From Rubrivirga marina (GTDB taxonomy: Bacteria > Bacteroidota > Rhodothermia > Rhodothermales > Rubricoccaceae): a stretch of 64,000 nucleotides of DNA. Shown here piece by piece: positions 4,498-14,249 of this stretch (positions are counted from its first letter, which is position 1; each line of letters begins with the position of its first letter). The DNA is taken from the NCBI RefSeq assembly GCF_002283365.1, contig NZ_MQWD01000001.1:3009749-3073748 (forward strand). The letters are read 5' to 3'. The position numbers and the translations under genes are program-made. Under the pieces are notes generated by a model. That model saw only the letters and a program-made list of their open reading frames with translations. It was not told the origin of the DNA and did not search any database.

Positions 4498-4631
4498 ATC
4501 TAACAGATGGCGGCTCACAAGGGTAGCGACCGCTGGCGGTGGTTCGGAGCAGAGGATACGCCTCTGGCACCATAGGCCAGACAACGCGAAAACGCTAGAG
4601 CCCTTCGTCGGCGTGCAGACGCGGGTTATAC
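4498..4631 (-). repeat. attC4 (belongs to cassette 9)
   Basis: Core boxes are ATCTAAC (4498-4504) and GTTATAC (4625-4631). The stop codon of the cassette 9 gene overlaps the second box. Confidence 0.88.
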
Positions 4632-5480
4632 GGCGCTGGCACTCGGGACCATGACGGAACGTGCCCCGAAAAACGGAGCCGCTAATTCCTCGTTGCCTCC
4701 GAGTCGCGCACGCGAGCGGGCCTCGGCCGGGTCGAGCGCATGGTAGAGCGACTTCCAGGCCGTGTCGGGGTCGAGGATGATCGTGGCGTCTGGGTCAGCG
4801 GAGCCGCCTTCGAGTACGTCCCAGGTGCTGTCGCCCCGCACGAGACACCACGCCCCGCCGCCCAGTCCCTCGACCTCGACGACGAGGCACGTCCCCGGTT
4901 CGGCCTCGACTGCGGCGTAGGTGCGGGGGAGCACGCGGACCGAAAGGTCCAGGAGCGGGAGGAGCCACCGCCGCTCGAAAAGTCCCGGCGCGCCCACGGC
5001 GTCGCGGATCTGCATTTGGTGGTGCCACCACTCGGTGTACTCCCGCCCGACGTGCATCCAGTTCTCAGATTCGTCCCCACCGGCCCACGCGACAGAGAAA
5101 AGGGACGGCTCATGCGGGGGCAGCGCGGCATACGTCGCCGCCGCCTCGGGGCCGACGAGGGAGAGCAGGTCAGTCAGCACCCGGGGGCTGAGCCGTTGCG
5201 AAGCTGTGGTCCACTCTGCGTTGAGCCGGTCGAGGAAGCGGACGAGGTCGTCGTAGCCGCCGATGGGTTGATCGGGTGGGGCGAGGTGGTCGTCGCGGAA
5301 TACGGAGAGCGCGCGGAGTTGCCCGTCGAGCAGGTGCGCCGCGACATCACGGACGCGCCAGGACCCAGCGACCGTGGGACGCTCCCAATCGTCATCCGCG
5401 AGACCACGGAGCAGCCGGATTAGCTCCACATGAAGCGGAGCTAGCAGATCCGAGGCGTAGGTGGGGGCGATCGGCTGCAT
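4626..5480 (-). CDS. Cassette 9: DinB/maleylpyruvate-isomerase-like (MDMPI) protein
   Basis: A 284-residue protein resembling the DinB-like four-helix family with an MDMPI (mycothiol-dependent maleylpyruvate isomerase) N-terminal domain. Family features: LLRGLADDDWERPTVAGSWRVRD followed by VAAHLLDGQ supplies the first metal-binding histidine, and the helix HVGREYTEWWHHQMQIRDA supplies the later ones. The C-terminal half (CLVVEVEGL..AWCLVRGD..DATIILDPDTAW) resembles the SCP2-like C-terminal domain of these proteins. It may be a thiol-dependent transferase or isomerase in the cytoplasm; the thiol and substrate are unknown. TAA lies in the attC4 core. No signal peptide is present. Confidence 0.78.
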   Translation of the reverse strand: MQPIAPTYASDLLAPLHVELIRLLRGLADDDWERPTVAGSWRVRDVAAHLLDGQLRALSVFRDDHLAPPDQPIGGYDDLVRFLDRLNAEWTTASQRLSPRVLTDLLSLVGPEAAATYAALPPHEPSLFSVAWAGGDESENWMHVGREYTEWWHHQMQIRDAVGAPGLFERRWLLPLLDLSVRVLPRTYAAVEAEPGTCLVVEVEGLGGGAWCLVRGDSTWDVLEGGSADPDATIILDPDTAWKSLYHALDPAEARSRARLGGNEELAAPFFGARSVMVPSASAV

Positions 5481-5707: not shown

Positions 5708-6874
5708 TCAGCCCGTGCACGCGAACGCGTGGACCCCGCTCGACGCGCTGAGGTAGAGGACCCCGTCGGCCGACGCCGCCTGACCGGGGATCGCCTCGTC
5801 ATCGGCGAGGAGCGGCCCGAGATGCCGGCCCGTCCCGAGGTCGAACAGCGCGCCCCGCTGATCGTCGGCGTAGAGGAGCCCCCCGCACGCGAGCTGAGTG
5901 AAGAACCCGCCCGGACGCTCCACGGCCCAAGCGCGACGGCCCGTCGCCGCGTCGACGGCGAACACGCCGCCCAGCGTGTCCGTGTAGTAAACCCGCCCGC
6001 CTGCGACGACCGGCGCGGCGTTGATCGAGAACGAGCCCGGCGTGTACGGGGCTCGCCACGCGACGGCCCGCGCTCTCCGGCTCACGGCGACGACCTCCTG
6101 GCCGCCGGAGTCCGTATAGAGGACGAGGTCGCCGGAGAACGCCAGCGCGCTCCCCTCCCGGTCCGTCTCCGGCCCTCCGTCGACGACCCGCCACCGCTCG
6201 GTCCCAGTGGCCGGGTCGAGTGCGGCGACGGCGGCGGCCGAGTAGATCGCGGGGGGGGCGTACTCGCCCGAGAACGAGACGAAGAGGTCGTCGCCGTCGG
6301 GGGCGAGCGTGGCCGCCGCCATGCGGATTCCCTTCCAACCTGGCCCCTCGAACGTGCGCTCCCAGACCAACTCGCCCGTCCGAGCGTCGACGGCCACGAC
6401 CCGGCCGGTTCCGTCGGCGGCGCCGGCGACGCCGCCGTAGACGCGGGCCGCATCGGCGTCGGCGTCAACGAGTTGGAACGAGTCCTCGGCCCGGCCGGTC
6501 CCGTGGCGCCAGAGGACGCGGCCAGTCCGGGCATCGAGGGCGTAGAGGTAGTCGCCGGGGCAGTAGACCACGTCGCCGGCAGGGACGACCGTGCACGGCC
6601 CGACGACGGTCTGGCGCCAGGCCTCGGCCCCGTCCCGACGGTCGTAGGCGACGAGGGCTCGGCCGTCGCCGACCCGCTCGCGGATGGCGTAGAACCGGTC
6701 GGCGTCGACGGCCCCCTTCCGGATGGTCGAGAACGCGATGCCGACGGGCTGCCCGGCCGTCCAGAGCGTCTCGAGCGTCGGGCTAACCTGGTCGATGTCT
6801 GCCGTCTCTGCCGTCGAGCAGGCCGCGAGAGCGAGGCCAGCGAGGGTGAGGGCGAGGGCGACGTGGACGTTCAA
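5708..6874 (-). CDS. Cassette 8: PQQ/WD-like beta-propeller lipoprotein
   Basis: About 388 residues. A lipoprotein signal peptide ends in LALAAC and is followed by beta-propeller blades of the PQQ-enzyme/BamB-like repeat type. Each blade carries an LDARTGRVLWR-like motif (YALDARTGRVLW, VAVDARTGELVWER, AALDPATGTERWR, FAVDAATGRRAWAV). It is probably anchored in a membrane facing the periplasm; no catalytic PQQ residues are evident. The start is uncertain: TTG at 6874 places the signal peptide best, and GTG at 6907 adds 11 residues. The frame remains open further upstream to 7456, but that part crosses attC6 and the 7079-7472 insertion and is not coding. Confidence 0.8.
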   Translation of the reverse strand: MNVHVALALTLAGLALAACSTAETADIDQVSPTLETLWTAGQPVGIAFSTIRKGAVDADRFYAIRERVGDGRALVAYDRRDGAEAWRQTVVGPCTVVPAGDVVYCPGDYLYALDARTGRVLWRHGTGRAEDSFQLVDADADAARVYGGVAGAADGTGRVVAVDARTGELVWERTFEGPGWKGIRMAAATLAPDGDDLFVSFSGEYAPPAIYSAAAVAALDPATGTERWRVVDGGPETDREGSALAFSGDLVLYTDSGGQEVVAVSRRARAVAWRAPYTPGSFSINAAPVVAGGRVYYTDTLGGVFAVDAATGRRAWAVERPGGFFTQLACGGLLYADDQRGALFDLGTGRHLGPLLADDEAIPGQAASADGVLYLSASSGVHAFACTG

Positions 6875-6957
6875 CGGGTAGGGGGCTGAGACCACGACGT
6901 AGTTCACATGGCTGAGACTGGAAGTCAAGCCGGCTTGTGGTTCCAATCTGGTGTGCC

Positions 6958-7479
6958 GTAGAACAGTTGACCGCTCAGCCGCTCCAAACTGAGGGCTGGC
7001 GGGTAGACGAGCGACAGAATACACGATGCTTGGACGAGCCGAGTACGCTGACGTCTGGGGTCGGCCTGCAGCGGTGAGATACTTCCAAGAAGCAGGGCGG
7101 TGCCCTATACTTCTCCCAACCCCAGTGGCCGGACCGTCAAGCCCGCACGCTGAACGGGCGCCGTCTTCGGCGTCGTCCATGTGGGAATGGGAAGGCGGTC
7201 CTGGCGCCCGCGACGTGTATCTGAGACGCCCCGCCTCGGTGGGGCAGCGGACGGACCGGCGACGGTCCCCGTCCACTCGATGAGGGGTCTGGCCGCCGCC
7301 GGGGCCTTCGGGGCCGACGAGCGGACGGCACCCACCGATACGAGTCGGCCGCCACAGCGAGGGGAGCAGGACGCCGCCCGGCGAGTGCCGGTGCCGGGGG
7401 CAGGGCCTCACCCGGAGCCCCCGTCTCGTCGTGCACTGGCGCCATGCTCGACTCACTCAACTTCTTTGAGGGGTTATGC
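6958..7479 (-). repeat. attC6 (belongs to cassette 7), split by an insertion
   Basis: The left part runs from GTAGAAC (6958-6964) through the conserved CCTGCAGCGGTGAG to 7078. The other core box, GTTATGC, is found at 7473-7479 after a 0.4-kb insertion. Rejoining the two parts restores a site of normal length and structure. Confidence 0.8.
7079..7472. mobile_element. Transposase-less insertion in attC6 with IS1111-like ends
   Basis: About 394 bp sit exactly where the IS110-family element sits in attC12. The left end ATACTTCCAAGAAGCAGG resembles the left end of that IS (ATCCTTCCAATCAGGAG), and both right ends finish in GGGG before the TT of the core box. Short subterminal inverted repeats (AAGAAG, matched by CTTCTT near the right end) mirror the AATCAGG repeat of the complete element. 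No transposase-like reading frame is present. It may be a deletion derivative or a non-autonomous element moved in trans. Confidence 0.55.
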
Positions 7480-8244
7480 GGCCATTGGATACACTATCAT
7501 GCCGATGCTGAGGTGCGCAGTGCTTTCTGACGGAATGACTTTCTTAAAATCCACAGCGCTGCTGACGCCGTTTATAAATAGCTGCGTCATTTCGCTGTCA
7601 GGGTTGATGGACGCCGTGTGGTCGGGCCAGTAGGTGGCTCTCAGTAGCAGGTGCTTAAGCGCGAGTCCTATAACGTATGATCGCTTTTGATGCCGATCAT
7701 TCTTCTGCACCACAGTCTCCTCAGGACCAAGGACCATCAGGTTCTGACTCTGGGCAAGCTCTCTCCCGGCTACGATTGATTTGGACAACCCTACCTCCAC
7801 CAGGACGCCGCGGGGAGGATTGCTACTATTGTACAAATTGCGATAGTGAACCTTGGTAACTATTTTGCGATAGTTAGTTCCGGCATTTATCATAAGGATT
7901 GTTTTGAATGCCCATCCAGCCACAATGCGAGACTGCTCGTTGCTCCACGGCGCTGCATTCACCCCCTCATCGGCAGCGTTCTTCAGCAGTGGCATCGCTC
8001 GAGATTCGAGCCTGCTCATCCACCCGTTGTTGCACGACTGGCACACTTGCCCAAATACAAACGAATTATCAGATTGGGTCCGCTCGTCGAGTAGCTTTAG
8101 CCCCGTCATAGGGGATCCAAAGTGGCGGCCTACGATGACCTTGCTGTCGCTCGTGTCATCAAACTCATGAATCCACTTCGGCCAGATGTGCTCCTTCGCC
8201 CTGTCGCCTGTCTCAAAGCAAAATATGCATTTGACGCGGGCCAT
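7474..8244 (-). CDS. Cassette 7: HNH endonuclease-like protein
   Basis: 256 residues with an N-terminal zinc-knuckle arrangement: CIFC at residues 6-9, KEHIWPKW at about 17-24 and CQSCNNGWM at about 68-76. This Cys-His-Cys-Asn order is typical of HNH-type nucleases or their relatives. The C-terminal two thirds contain KTILMINAG and LALKHLLL, with no other motif I recognise. The gene is clearly more AT-rich than its neighbours and uses A/T-ending codons (AAT, AAA, ATA), so it was probably acquired recently from a different background. TAA overlaps the attC6 core box. A defence or mobile-DNA role is possible but not shown. Confidence 0.65.
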   Translation of the reverse strand: MARVKCIFCFETGDRAKEHIWPKWIHEFDDTSDSKVIVGRHFGSPMTGLKLLDERTQSDNSFVFGQVCQSCNNGWMSRLESRAMPLLKNAADEGVNAAPWSNEQSRIVAGWAFKTILMINAGTNYRKIVTKVHYRNLYNSSNPPRGVLVEVGLSKSIVAGRELAQSQNLMVLGPEETVVQKNDRHQKRSYVIGLALKHLLLRATYWPDHTASINPDSEMTQLFINGVSSAVDFKKVIPSESTAHLSIGMIVYPMAA

Positions 8245-11219: not shown

Positions 11220-11411
11220 CGACTACAGTGCAGCCGCCGTAGAACAGGGGGCCGCTCAGCCGCACAGAGCTGAGGGCACGGGGGCGGGCGGGACCGCAGA
11301 ATACGCCGACGGATGTACAGCGCGAGAACGCTGGCGCTTTGTGTCGGCCTGCAGCGGCGGGATCCTTCCAATCAGGAGACCATCCTTCGGATCCCACTCG
11401 CCGCCGCCGCC

Positions 11412-12503
11412 ATGACCTCCTTCACCGGCCTCGACCTCCACAAGCGCTCCGTCACCGCGACCACGCTCGACGCCGAAGGCGTCGTCGTCGCGACGGCCAA
11501 GATGCCGTGCCGGCCCGACGCCCTCCGGGCCTACTTCGCCCAGCAGCCCGGGCACCACGCGGCGACCGTCGAGTGCACGACGGGCTGGTACTGGGTCCGC
11601 GACGCGCTCGCCGACCGGGCCGACGGCGGCCCCGAGGTCGACCTCACGCTCGCCCACGCCAAGGGCGTCAAGGCCATCGCCGCCGCGAAGGTCAAGACGG
11701 ACGCCGCAGATGCGAGGACGCTGGCCCATCTTCTCCGGACCGACCTCCTGCCCGAGGCCCACATGATCTCCGACGAGATGCGCCCGCTCCGCGACGTGCT
11801 CCGGACCCGGCTTCGCCTGGTCGAGCGCCGGGTGGCCGCCCAGAACTCGGTCGCCCGGCTCCTCGAGAAGCACAACGTCCGCGACGTGGCCGACCTCGAC
11901 GCCTTCGGGAGGCTCCAGGCCGAGACCCACATCGAACAAGCGGAGCTCCTGCACCAGCAGATCAAGCGGCTCGAGAAGCACCTCCGCATCCACCTCGTCC
12001 CCGATGCCGATGTCCAACGCCTGTTCCGCATCCCGGGCATCGGCCAGGCCGTCGCCTTCTCGATCCGCCTCGAGGTCGACGACGTCTCGCGCTTCGAGAC
12101 CGACCGCCAGTTCTTCAGCTACTGCCGCCTCGTCCCGGGCGCCGACAACTCGGGCGACCGGGTCCGCCACAAGCGGTCCCGCGACGGGAACAGGTACCTC
12201 AAGCTCGCCTTCAGCCACGCCGCCGTCCGGGCGATCCAGTACTACCCGGAGGTCCGCGACTGGTACAAGACGAAGCGGCGGCGGAAGCCGGAGGCGGTCG
12301 CCCGGGCGCTCGTGGCCAAGGAGATCGCCCGGGTCGTCTACCATGTCCTCCGCAAGCAGGAAGACTTCAACGGCCGGTTCAAGGGACGCCCCCTGAGCCG
12401 GCTGAAGAAGGAGCAATGGCCGCTCCTCGCAAGCCCGGCCGGTATAACTGGCGACGGCGAGCCCCAAGCTCGACCGCCCTCGGCGGGAATGGGAAGCGAG
12501 TAG
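11412..12503 (+). CDS. IS110/IS1111-family DEDD transposase
   Basis: A 363-residue site-specific recombinase of the IS110 family. The N-terminal RuvC-like DEDD domain shows the first Asp in FTGLDLHKRSV, the Glu in VECTTGWYW, and paired Asp residues in KTDAADART. The C-terminal Transposase_20 domain has LFRIPGIGQAVAFSI, FFSYCRLVPGADNSG and the serine-containing segment RYLKLAFSHAA. Family knowledge: these enzymes are directed to their target by an RNA made from the non-coding end of the element. ATG 11412 gives a start at the conserved first strand. The gene points opposite to the cassettes. Confidence 0.92.
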   Translation: MTSFTGLDLHKRSVTATTLDAEGVVVATAKMPCRPDALRAYFAQQPGHHAATVECTTGWYWVRDALADRADGGPEVDLTLAHAKGVKAIAAAKVKTDAADARTLAHLLRTDLLPEAHMISDEMRPLRDVLRTRLRLVERRVAAQNSVARLLEKHNVRDVADLDAFGRLQAETHIEQAELLHQQIKRLEKHLRIHLVPDADVQRLFRIPGIGQAVAFSIRLEVDDVSRFETDRQFFSYCRLVPGADNSGDRVRHKRSRDGNRYLKLAFSHAAVRAIQYYPEVRDWYKTKRRRKPEAVARALVAKEIARVVYHVLRKQEDFNGRFKGRPLSRLKKEQWPLLASPAGITGDGEPQARPPSAGMGSE

Positions 12504-12782
12504 CGGGCCGCCTCGGGGGCTCTCGCCCCGACGGCCCAAGCCGCCGACAGAGATCTGGGACGCCGAGCCCCGACGCTCGGCCGTCGTCGTGACCGACGGC
12601 GAGAGCCCGAATGGGGGTGTGGCCCGCCAGCGCTTCGAGAAGCGACTGACGAGGACCCTCTCGATCTGACGACGCGGTGCCAAGGCTCCGAGAACCGAGC
12701 GCTCCTCAGACCGAGGGGCGCCGGGCGAGACTGGCCCTACCGCGCCGGAACCGCCCTACTTGACAAAGACCTGATTATGGGG
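12504..12782 (+). ncRNA. Candidate guide (bridge/seek) RNA region of the IS1111-type element
   Basis: The non-coding right end of the IS is long and full of self-complementary stretches (for example GGCTCTCGCC at 12519-12528 with GGCGAGAGCC at 12598-12607). In the IS1111 group this end encodes the guide RNA. A 10-base segment CTACCGCGCC at 12737-12746 is identical to the target flank at 12786-12795, as expected of a guide loop. No RNA ends can be set from sequence alone. Confidence 0.45.
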
Positions 12783-12799
12783 GTTCTACCGCGCCCCGC

Positions 12800-13253: not shown

Positions 13254-14249
13254 GTGTCCGCCCTCCTCGACGCCGTCCGCGCCGCCGCCCGGACCCGCCA
13301 CCTCAGTTACCGGACCGAGCAGGCCTACGTCCGGTGGGCCGAGCGGTTCGTCCGGTTCCACGCCCGCCGGGCCGGCCGGTTCGTCCACCCCCGAGACCTC
13401 CGCGAGCCGGCCGTCGAGGCGTTCCTCAACCACCTCGCGAACGACCGCGACGTCGCCGCCTCGACCCAGACCCAGGCCCTCTCCGCCCTCCTCTTCCTCT
13501 ACGACGCCGCCCTCGGAGACCCGCTCGACACGATGGCCGGGCTCACCCGGGTCCGGAAGCCGGCCCGGATCCCGACCGTCCTCACGCGTGCCGAGGTGGC
13601 CGCCCTCCTCTGCGGGTTCCGCGGGGTCCACCGGATCGTCGGCGGGCTCCTCTACGGGGCCGGCCTCCGCGTCTCGGGCGCCCTCCGGCTCCGGGTCAAG
13701 GACGTCGACCTCGACCGGCGCCAGCTCACGGTCCACAGGGGGAAGGGGGAGCGCGCGGGTCCGCGCGCGAAGGACCGCGTGGCCCTCCTGCCGGAGAGGC
13801 TCGTCGGGCCGCTCCGGGCCCACCTCGACGAGGTCGCCGACCTCCACCGGCGCGACCTCGCCGACGGCCACGGCGACGTCCCGCTTCCCCACGCGTACGT
13901 CCGGAAGCACCCCGGGGCGGCCCGCGCGCTCGGGTGGCAGTTCGCGTTCCCGTCGGCCCGGGTCTCGGCCGACCCCCGGACCGGGCTCCTCCACCGCCAC
14001 CACCTCTCGCCGTCGGCAGTCCAGACGGCCGTCCGGAAGGCGGCCCGGGCGGCCGGGATCGCGAAGCGGGCGACGCCCCACACGCTCCGGCACTCGTTCG
14101 CGACGCACCTCTTGGAGGACGGGGTCGACGTCCGGACGGTCCAGCACCTCCTCGGCCACGCGAAGCTGGCGACGACGCAGGTGTACCTCCACGTGGCCCA
14201 GCACACGGGGATCCGGGTCCGGAGCCCGCTCGACCGGCTCGATGTCTGA
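13254..14249 (+). CDS. intI: Integron integrase (tyrosine recombinase, IntI type)
   Basis: 331 residues. The core-binding domain starts ALLDAVRAAARTRHLSYRTEQ. Catalytic residues: Arg in YGAGLRVSGAL (about 139), Lys in GKGERAG, His and Arg in HTLRHSF (about 276-279), His in LLGHAKL (about 302) and Tyr in TQVYLHV (about 310). The IntI-specific insertion is present (LPHAYVRKHPGAARALGWQF followed by AFPS..SADPRTG and RHHL), which separates it from XerC/D. It catalyses cassette insertion at attI and exchange between attC sites. GTG 13254 was chosen because it precedes the first helix directly. It diverges from the cassettes, the classical arrangement. Confidence 0.95.
   Translation: MSALLDAVRAAARTRHLSYRTEQAYVRWAERFVRFHARRAGRFVHPRDLREPAVEAFLNHLANDRDVAASTQTQALSALLFLYDAALGDPLDTMAGLTRVRKPARIPTVLTRAEVAALLCGFRGVHRIVGGLLYGAGLRVSGALRLRVKDVDLDRRQLTVHRGKGERAGPRAKDRVALLPERLVGPLRAHLDEVADLHRRDLADGHGDVPLPHAYVRKHPGAARALGWQFAFPSARVSADPRTGLLHRHHLSPSAVQTAVRKAARAAGIAKRATPHTLRHSFATHLLEDGVDVRTVQHLLGHAKLATTQVYLHVAQHTGIRVRSPLDRLDV

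Follow-up and report, generated by a model that had tools for sequence, protein, structure and literature searches.

The window analysed here is a stretch of 64,000 nucleotides from Rubrivirga marina (G000:C1:3009749-3073748), whose genome measures 5 Mb and is of high GC content. It contains a cassette array that adjoins an integron integrase at 13254-14249 (Phage_integrase and SAM-like domains). Two attC sites are split by insertions: attC12 by an intact insertion sequence (IS) of the IS1111-attC group, hereafter IS-A, and attC6 by a 395-bp insert, the subject of this study. The insert is very probably a miniature non-autonomous IS1111-attC element, a guide-RNA (seekRNA) gene between two IS ends that has lost its transposase and would move in trans. 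The relevant features are as follows.

About 6952-7484, no strand assigned: attC6, with the insert lying close to its R'' end (sequence, attC repeat family and uninterrupted attC with the same core)
7079-7473, + strand: the 395-bp probable non-autonomous IS1111-attC element (three other full-length copies, located in attC and sharing its ends)
7079-7093, + strand: left end, ATACTTCC followed by subterminal repeat AAGAAGC (layout as in the resident IS, ATCCTTCC followed by AATCAGG)
7106-7111, + strand: TATACT, a -10-like hexamer at element nt 28-33 and candidate promoter part (alignment of copies)
7123-7131, + strand: CAGTGGCCG, transposase 3'-end remnant (Q-W-P codons) continuous with the 5' arm of stem P1 (arms and transposase alignment)
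7131-7155, + strand: P1 5' arm GGACCGTC (7131-7138) and guide-RNA motif AAGCCCGCACGCTGAAC (P1 pairing test)
7137-7297, + strand: conserved part of the predicted seekRNA region (covariance model R1, 41.0 bits, E = 8.2e-10)
7179-7201, + strand: segment 1 ATGTGGGA, motif GGGAATGGGAAG and P1 3' arm GGCGGTCC (7194-7201) (weak match of segment 1 to the attC left flank)
7276-7292, + strand: guide segment 2 CTCGATGAGGGGTCTGG, including TGAGGGGT (7281-7288), matching the right-hand terminus of the element together with the first T of the target (anchored own-versus-swapped test)
7460-7473, + strand: right end, subterminal repeat ACTTCTT followed by TGAGGGG (sequence and comparison of copies)
11362-12783, + strand: IS-A, intact IS1111-attC element in attC12 and candidate source of transposase in trans (junctions, copies, transposase)
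11412-12503, + strand: IS-A transposase, DEDD_Tnp_IS110 (PF01548, E = 2.7e-14) and Transposase_20 (PF02371, E = 3.9e-18)

The junctions of the insert in attC6 read GCAGCGGTGA-G / ATACTTCCAAGAAGC...ACTTCTTTGAGGG(G) / TTATGCGGC and those of IS-A in attC12 read GCAGCGGCGG-G / ATCCTTCCAATCAGG...CCTGATTATGGGG(G) / TTCTACC; the identical attC position is used by both. An intact attC whose target core is identical (GTCGGCCTGCAGCGGTGAGTTATACGG) is present elsewhere in the genome, and the 395-bp insertion was therefore precise, without duplication beyond one ambiguous G (boundaries 7078-7472 are equivalent). The initial annotation, made from the sequence alone, had described attC6 as split at the site equivalent to that of the IS in attC12, by a 0.4-kb insert without transposase and with short subterminal inverted repeats at both insertions. 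Junctions and uninterrupted attC bear out the shared site, and the insert is present, with a length of 395 bp instead of 394 bp. The absence of transposase holds for all four full-length copies described below (395-404 bp), in which there is no room for a DEDD transposase gene of the IS110/IS1111 type and only a 3'-end remnant is left. Since the gene is missing, the 395-bp element is a non-autonomous derivative and not an IS. Subterminal repeats do occur at both insertions in the same end layout (8 nt, 7-nt repeat ... 7-nt repeat, 6-7 nt), but their sequences differ: AAGAAGC / (G/A)CTTCTT in the element, with extensions of 8 nt on the left and 6-7 nt on the right as a trait of the IS1111 family, versus AATCAGG in the resident IS. 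With repeats this different, the insert did not arise from the resident IS by a simple deletion. The suggested comparison with the right end of the IS likewise yielded a shared layout with differing last bases (TGAGGGG vs ATGGGGG) and differing guides. Repeats of 7 nt are shorter than the 11-13 bp quoted for IS1111 elements in one study (PMC11187229) and lie inside the 7-17 bp quoted in another (PMC11208160).

Members of the IS1111-attC group (ISKpn4, ISPst6, ISPa25) insert at a fixed site at one attC end, have subterminal inverted repeats and carry a target-matching seekRNA in the 3' non-coding region (PMC11187229). The element shares the fixed insertion point at one attC end without target duplication, the subterminal repeats and the downstream seekRNA region; unlike the group it has no transposase gene, measures 395-404 bp versus about 1.4 kb and ends on the right without TTGACA.

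Covariance model R1 was trained on the guide-RNA regions of 15 transposase-bearing IS1111-attC elements from the phylum, with the 395-404-bp copies excluded. These 15 regions, located 3' of the transposase gene, have in common AAGCCCGnnCGCnTAAC, GGAATGGGA or GATTGGGA, ATCTGGGA, and a segment preceding TnTGG. A profile from the 15 IS regions alone returned the three element copies then known as its only significant matches. R1 gives these copies E = 5e-11, 7.7e-10 and, for the insert in the window, 8.2e-10, and a fourth copy E = 2e-9. At E <= 0.01 in 60 genomes, R1 detects only IS1111-attC guide-RNA regions and these elements. The insert thus displays, as a predicted RNA, the IS1111 trait of a seekRNA in the 3' non-coding region. 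Rfam contains no family matching the insert or the resident IS at the gathering threshold.

In 15 of 16 elements, the segment preceding TnTGG reproduces the last bases of the element that carries it, followed by the first T of the target. When guides and right ends were compared in an anchored test over the 16 elements, the mean match was 7.9 of 8 nt for own ends and 5.4 for swapped ends, a difference reached in 0 of 100000 permutations. The three element copies tested match their own right end at 8/8 nt and the resident IS ends at 5-6/8: TGAGGGGT occurs both in the RNA and at the right end of the inserts, and the resident IS carry ATGGGGGT or TTGGGGGT. In the fourth copy the RNA has TTGAGGGGTTTGG and the right end TTTGAGGGG/TT. 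Another segment of the RNA resembles the left target flank, again with own flanks scoring above swapped ones (4 of 20000 permutations, with L047 contributing a score of zero because its wrong end was read).

Stem P1 is formed by the bases before AAGCC joined to those after TGGGA. In the alignment, 96.6% of its cells are paired, with 35 double-change cells vs 10.4 in shuffles and a covariation score of 1.12 vs 0.29; controls slid along the alignment are at most 49% paired. Compensatory changes also occur within the element family (GGACCG/CGGTCC, GAACCG/CGGTTC, CGCCGC/GCGGCG), among them a change from G-C to A-U between two element copies. The final transposase codons share bases with the 5' arm, and this may be why they were kept. 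The evidence for the stem rests on this anchored test and not on RNAalifold, which for three copies alone gave a net unfavourable covariation term. Together, R1, the own-right-end match and the compensated stem substantiate the proposal in the initial annotation that the insert consists mainly of the non-coding guide-RNA end of an IS1111-attC type element. At L046-L057 and further loci of the phylum, the IS1111-attC guide RNA combines a strongly covarying stem with an 8-nt segment identical to the right end of its own element, and it lends itself to description as an RNA family.

A BLASTN search for further copies, as suggested by the annotation, identified two full ones of 400 and 401 bp with 81-84% identity in another genome of the genus (G003), at the same attC point. 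The fourth copy, of 404 bp, lies in an attC of a genome of another family (G039) and appeared only with the covariance model; class-wide blastn over 245 genomes outside the genus returned no copy, the G039 copy being too diverged for this method, and distant blastn against a plasmid collection gave no match to the element. Hence four full-length copies are present in three genomes and two families, all at one attC position and in unrelated cassettes; when their flanks are compared the attC is essentially common and the cassettes are not. Every copy begins with some 60 bp made up of the left end and the transposase remnant and continues with the seekRNA gene up to the right end; guide, stem and ends are conserved while the spacers vary. 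The shared attC position is more than chance, and the occurrence at four independent attC sites indicates, on comparison of these sequences, a mobile lineage. The element lacks a transposase, has the ends of a known IS family and exists in several copies, all of them traits of a miniature inverted-repeat transposable element (MITE). No parent sequence making it part of an unrelated cassette was encountered, and its ends do resemble those of IS1111 elements. The right end also occurs alone, as a 64-bp piece at G000:C1:3790630-3790695 (L002, L004), directly past the stop codon of an annotated-looking open reading frame (ORF).

We propose that in an ancestral IS1111-attC element an internal deletion removed nearly all of the transposase gene, leaving the final transposase codons and the seekRNA gene between some 45 bp of the left end and the right end. 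The seekRNA would be transcribed and then bound by the IS1111 transposase of a resident intact copy. Base pairing would join segment 2 to the core and the element's own right end, and segment 1 to the left half of the target attC; the complex would then excise the element as a circle and insert it precisely beside the R'' core of another attC. Candidates for such mobilisation in trans are at hand, as intact IS1111 transposases are encoded in each genome carrying a 395-404-bp element. Within the genus, R. marina and G003 carry both element and IS and two further genomes (G001, G002) carry neither; a scan of genome contigs with the transposase alignment returned only the G003 genome. A second array at about 212-221 kb of the R. 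marina contig (L006, L008) has an identical IS-A copy near 214-216 kb, in attC. Near it lies IS-B, also within attC, with a transposase 85% identical to that of IS-A at the protein level. In experiments, a mini-IS bounded by ISEc11 ends was mobilised by transposase and seekRNA supplied in trans, and seekRNAs are not bound to one narrow transposase group (PMC11187229).

Several observations weigh against this scenario. The resident transposases belong to elements with the AATCAGG repeat, and the full-length parent with an AAGAAGC repeat that the annotation had proposed to look for was not found in the genomes searched. In G045, another genome of the order, a partial IS (L016, L064) shows GATAATCCCAAGAAGGCC at a left end and GGCCTTCTTAAAGGTG at a right end, so IS with an AAGAAG repeat exist. 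A consensus scan for sigma-70 type promoters gave none inside the element, and the TTGACA of the junction promoter at autonomous right ends is missing; the hexamer at nt 28-33 is TATACT or TATATT in 3/4 copies (TATATT in G039, TATCAC in one G003 copy). The match between segment 1 and the attC left flank extends over about 4-6 nt in the inserts, as against 8 nt in the resident IS. Finally, the copies have diverged by 16-19% or more, which leaves recent movement of the lineage unsupported.

This divergence would also suit an immobile relic, namely a decayed IS1111-attC copy whose transposase was lost in place and whose spread is due solely to vertical descent or the movement of cassettes. Decay does occur, as the solo right end shows, and several relatives in the class are clearly degraded. 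A relic is nevertheless unlikely given four copies of near-equal length and the same internal layout in four unrelated cassettes, the conservation of guide, stem and ends next to variable spacers, and stem changes that are compensated, which is unexpected of a relic. Much less likely still is an origin by deletion from the resident IS-A/IS-B lineage. The attC position and the layout of left and right ends are shared and both kinds of element reside in one genome, but repeats (AAGAAGC vs AATCAGG), right ends (TGAGGGG vs ATGGGGG) and guides differ together, the guide-RNA regions are too diverged for BLAST, and guide and right end are distinct from IS-A in every copy. That the insert is non-coding might suggest a cassette-borne structured or regulatory RNA, unrelated to transposition and in attC by chance. 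We consider this barely credible: its single-sequence folding energy is no better than that of shuffles (z = -1.2), it has IS1111 ends, an exact insertion site and a guide matching its own end, R1 matches only IS1111-attC guide RNAs, and copies occupy the same attC position in unrelated cassettes. Under the favoured interpretation of a miniature element moved in trans, the lineage may be protein-free and self-guided, its own-end-matched guide being lent to the transposase of another IS1111 subgroup with different repeats; the guide and not the repeat would then decide which DNA is moved, and the element would be a guide-RNA parasite persisting across bacterial families. We put this joint reading forward tentatively, as a possibility somewhat less probable than its converse.

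Other transposase-deleted elements were collected from the R1 matches across the class; RNA matches without a left end, several of them in f18 genomes, were taken as remnants and left out of the non-autonomous count. Genome G197 has two 604-bp elements (L111 on contig C13, L112 on C17) that are 99.3% identical, with unrelated flanks and with ends and guide RNA intact. Transposase codons 1 to about 89 run directly into the P1 5' arm in these elements, and no full-length transposase was found in this draft genome. Such similarity between two sites suggests that at least one element of this kind moved recently, although the pair may be an assembly artefact. In one further G197 derivative the beginning of the RNA is missing as well. 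In G465, elements of 932 bp (L109) and 696 bp (L104) have internal transposase deletions with ends and RNA intact, and longer relatives alongside. Transposase loss with retention of the guide has thus occurred more than once in the class.

The IS1111-attC family, the seekRNA mechanism and MITEs are already known. Like MITEs and QMITE2, the element is short, non-coding, non-autonomous and present in several copies; QMITE2 of Coxiella burnetii is a target of IS1111 and not derived from it (PMC5896051). The artificial ISEc11 mini-IS, which likewise has IS1111 ends around non-transposase DNA and moved with transposase in trans, received its seekRNA in trans too (PMC11187229), whereas the present element is natural and has its own seekRNA gene. 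Ordinary MITEs consist of ends only, unlike this element with its additional guide-RNA gene. ORF-less group II introns retain the RNA part and are helped by a maturase in trans. The element resembles them in keeping the RNA and borrowing the protein, and differs in the enzyme and in the use of DNA recombination instead of retrohoming. No report on transposase-less IS1111/IS110 elements keeping a guide RNA was found in the literature searched, which did not include key older IS1111-attC papers; natural transposase-less IS1111 elements with their own guide RNA are new relative to the papers searched. They represent natural cases of RNA-guided recombination elements cut down to ends and guide RNA, arisen more than once. 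The set allows a test of whether IS1111 transposases recognise the guide RNA, the subterminal repeat or both, and its alignment provides a deeply conserved guide-RNA architecture (P1 stem and right-end segment) for the IS1111-attC group of the phylum. Since attC sites are split by such elements, cassette shuffling may be affected.

Around the insert, the window has a cassette gene for a 256-aa protein without Pfam match at 7474-8244 (- strand), with its stop codon at the insert junction, and at 5708-6850 (- strand) a cassette gene for a PQQ/BamB-type beta-propeller protein. The attC sites at 2523-2664 and 4521-4634 are about 90% alike in their matching parts and unlike the others in the array.
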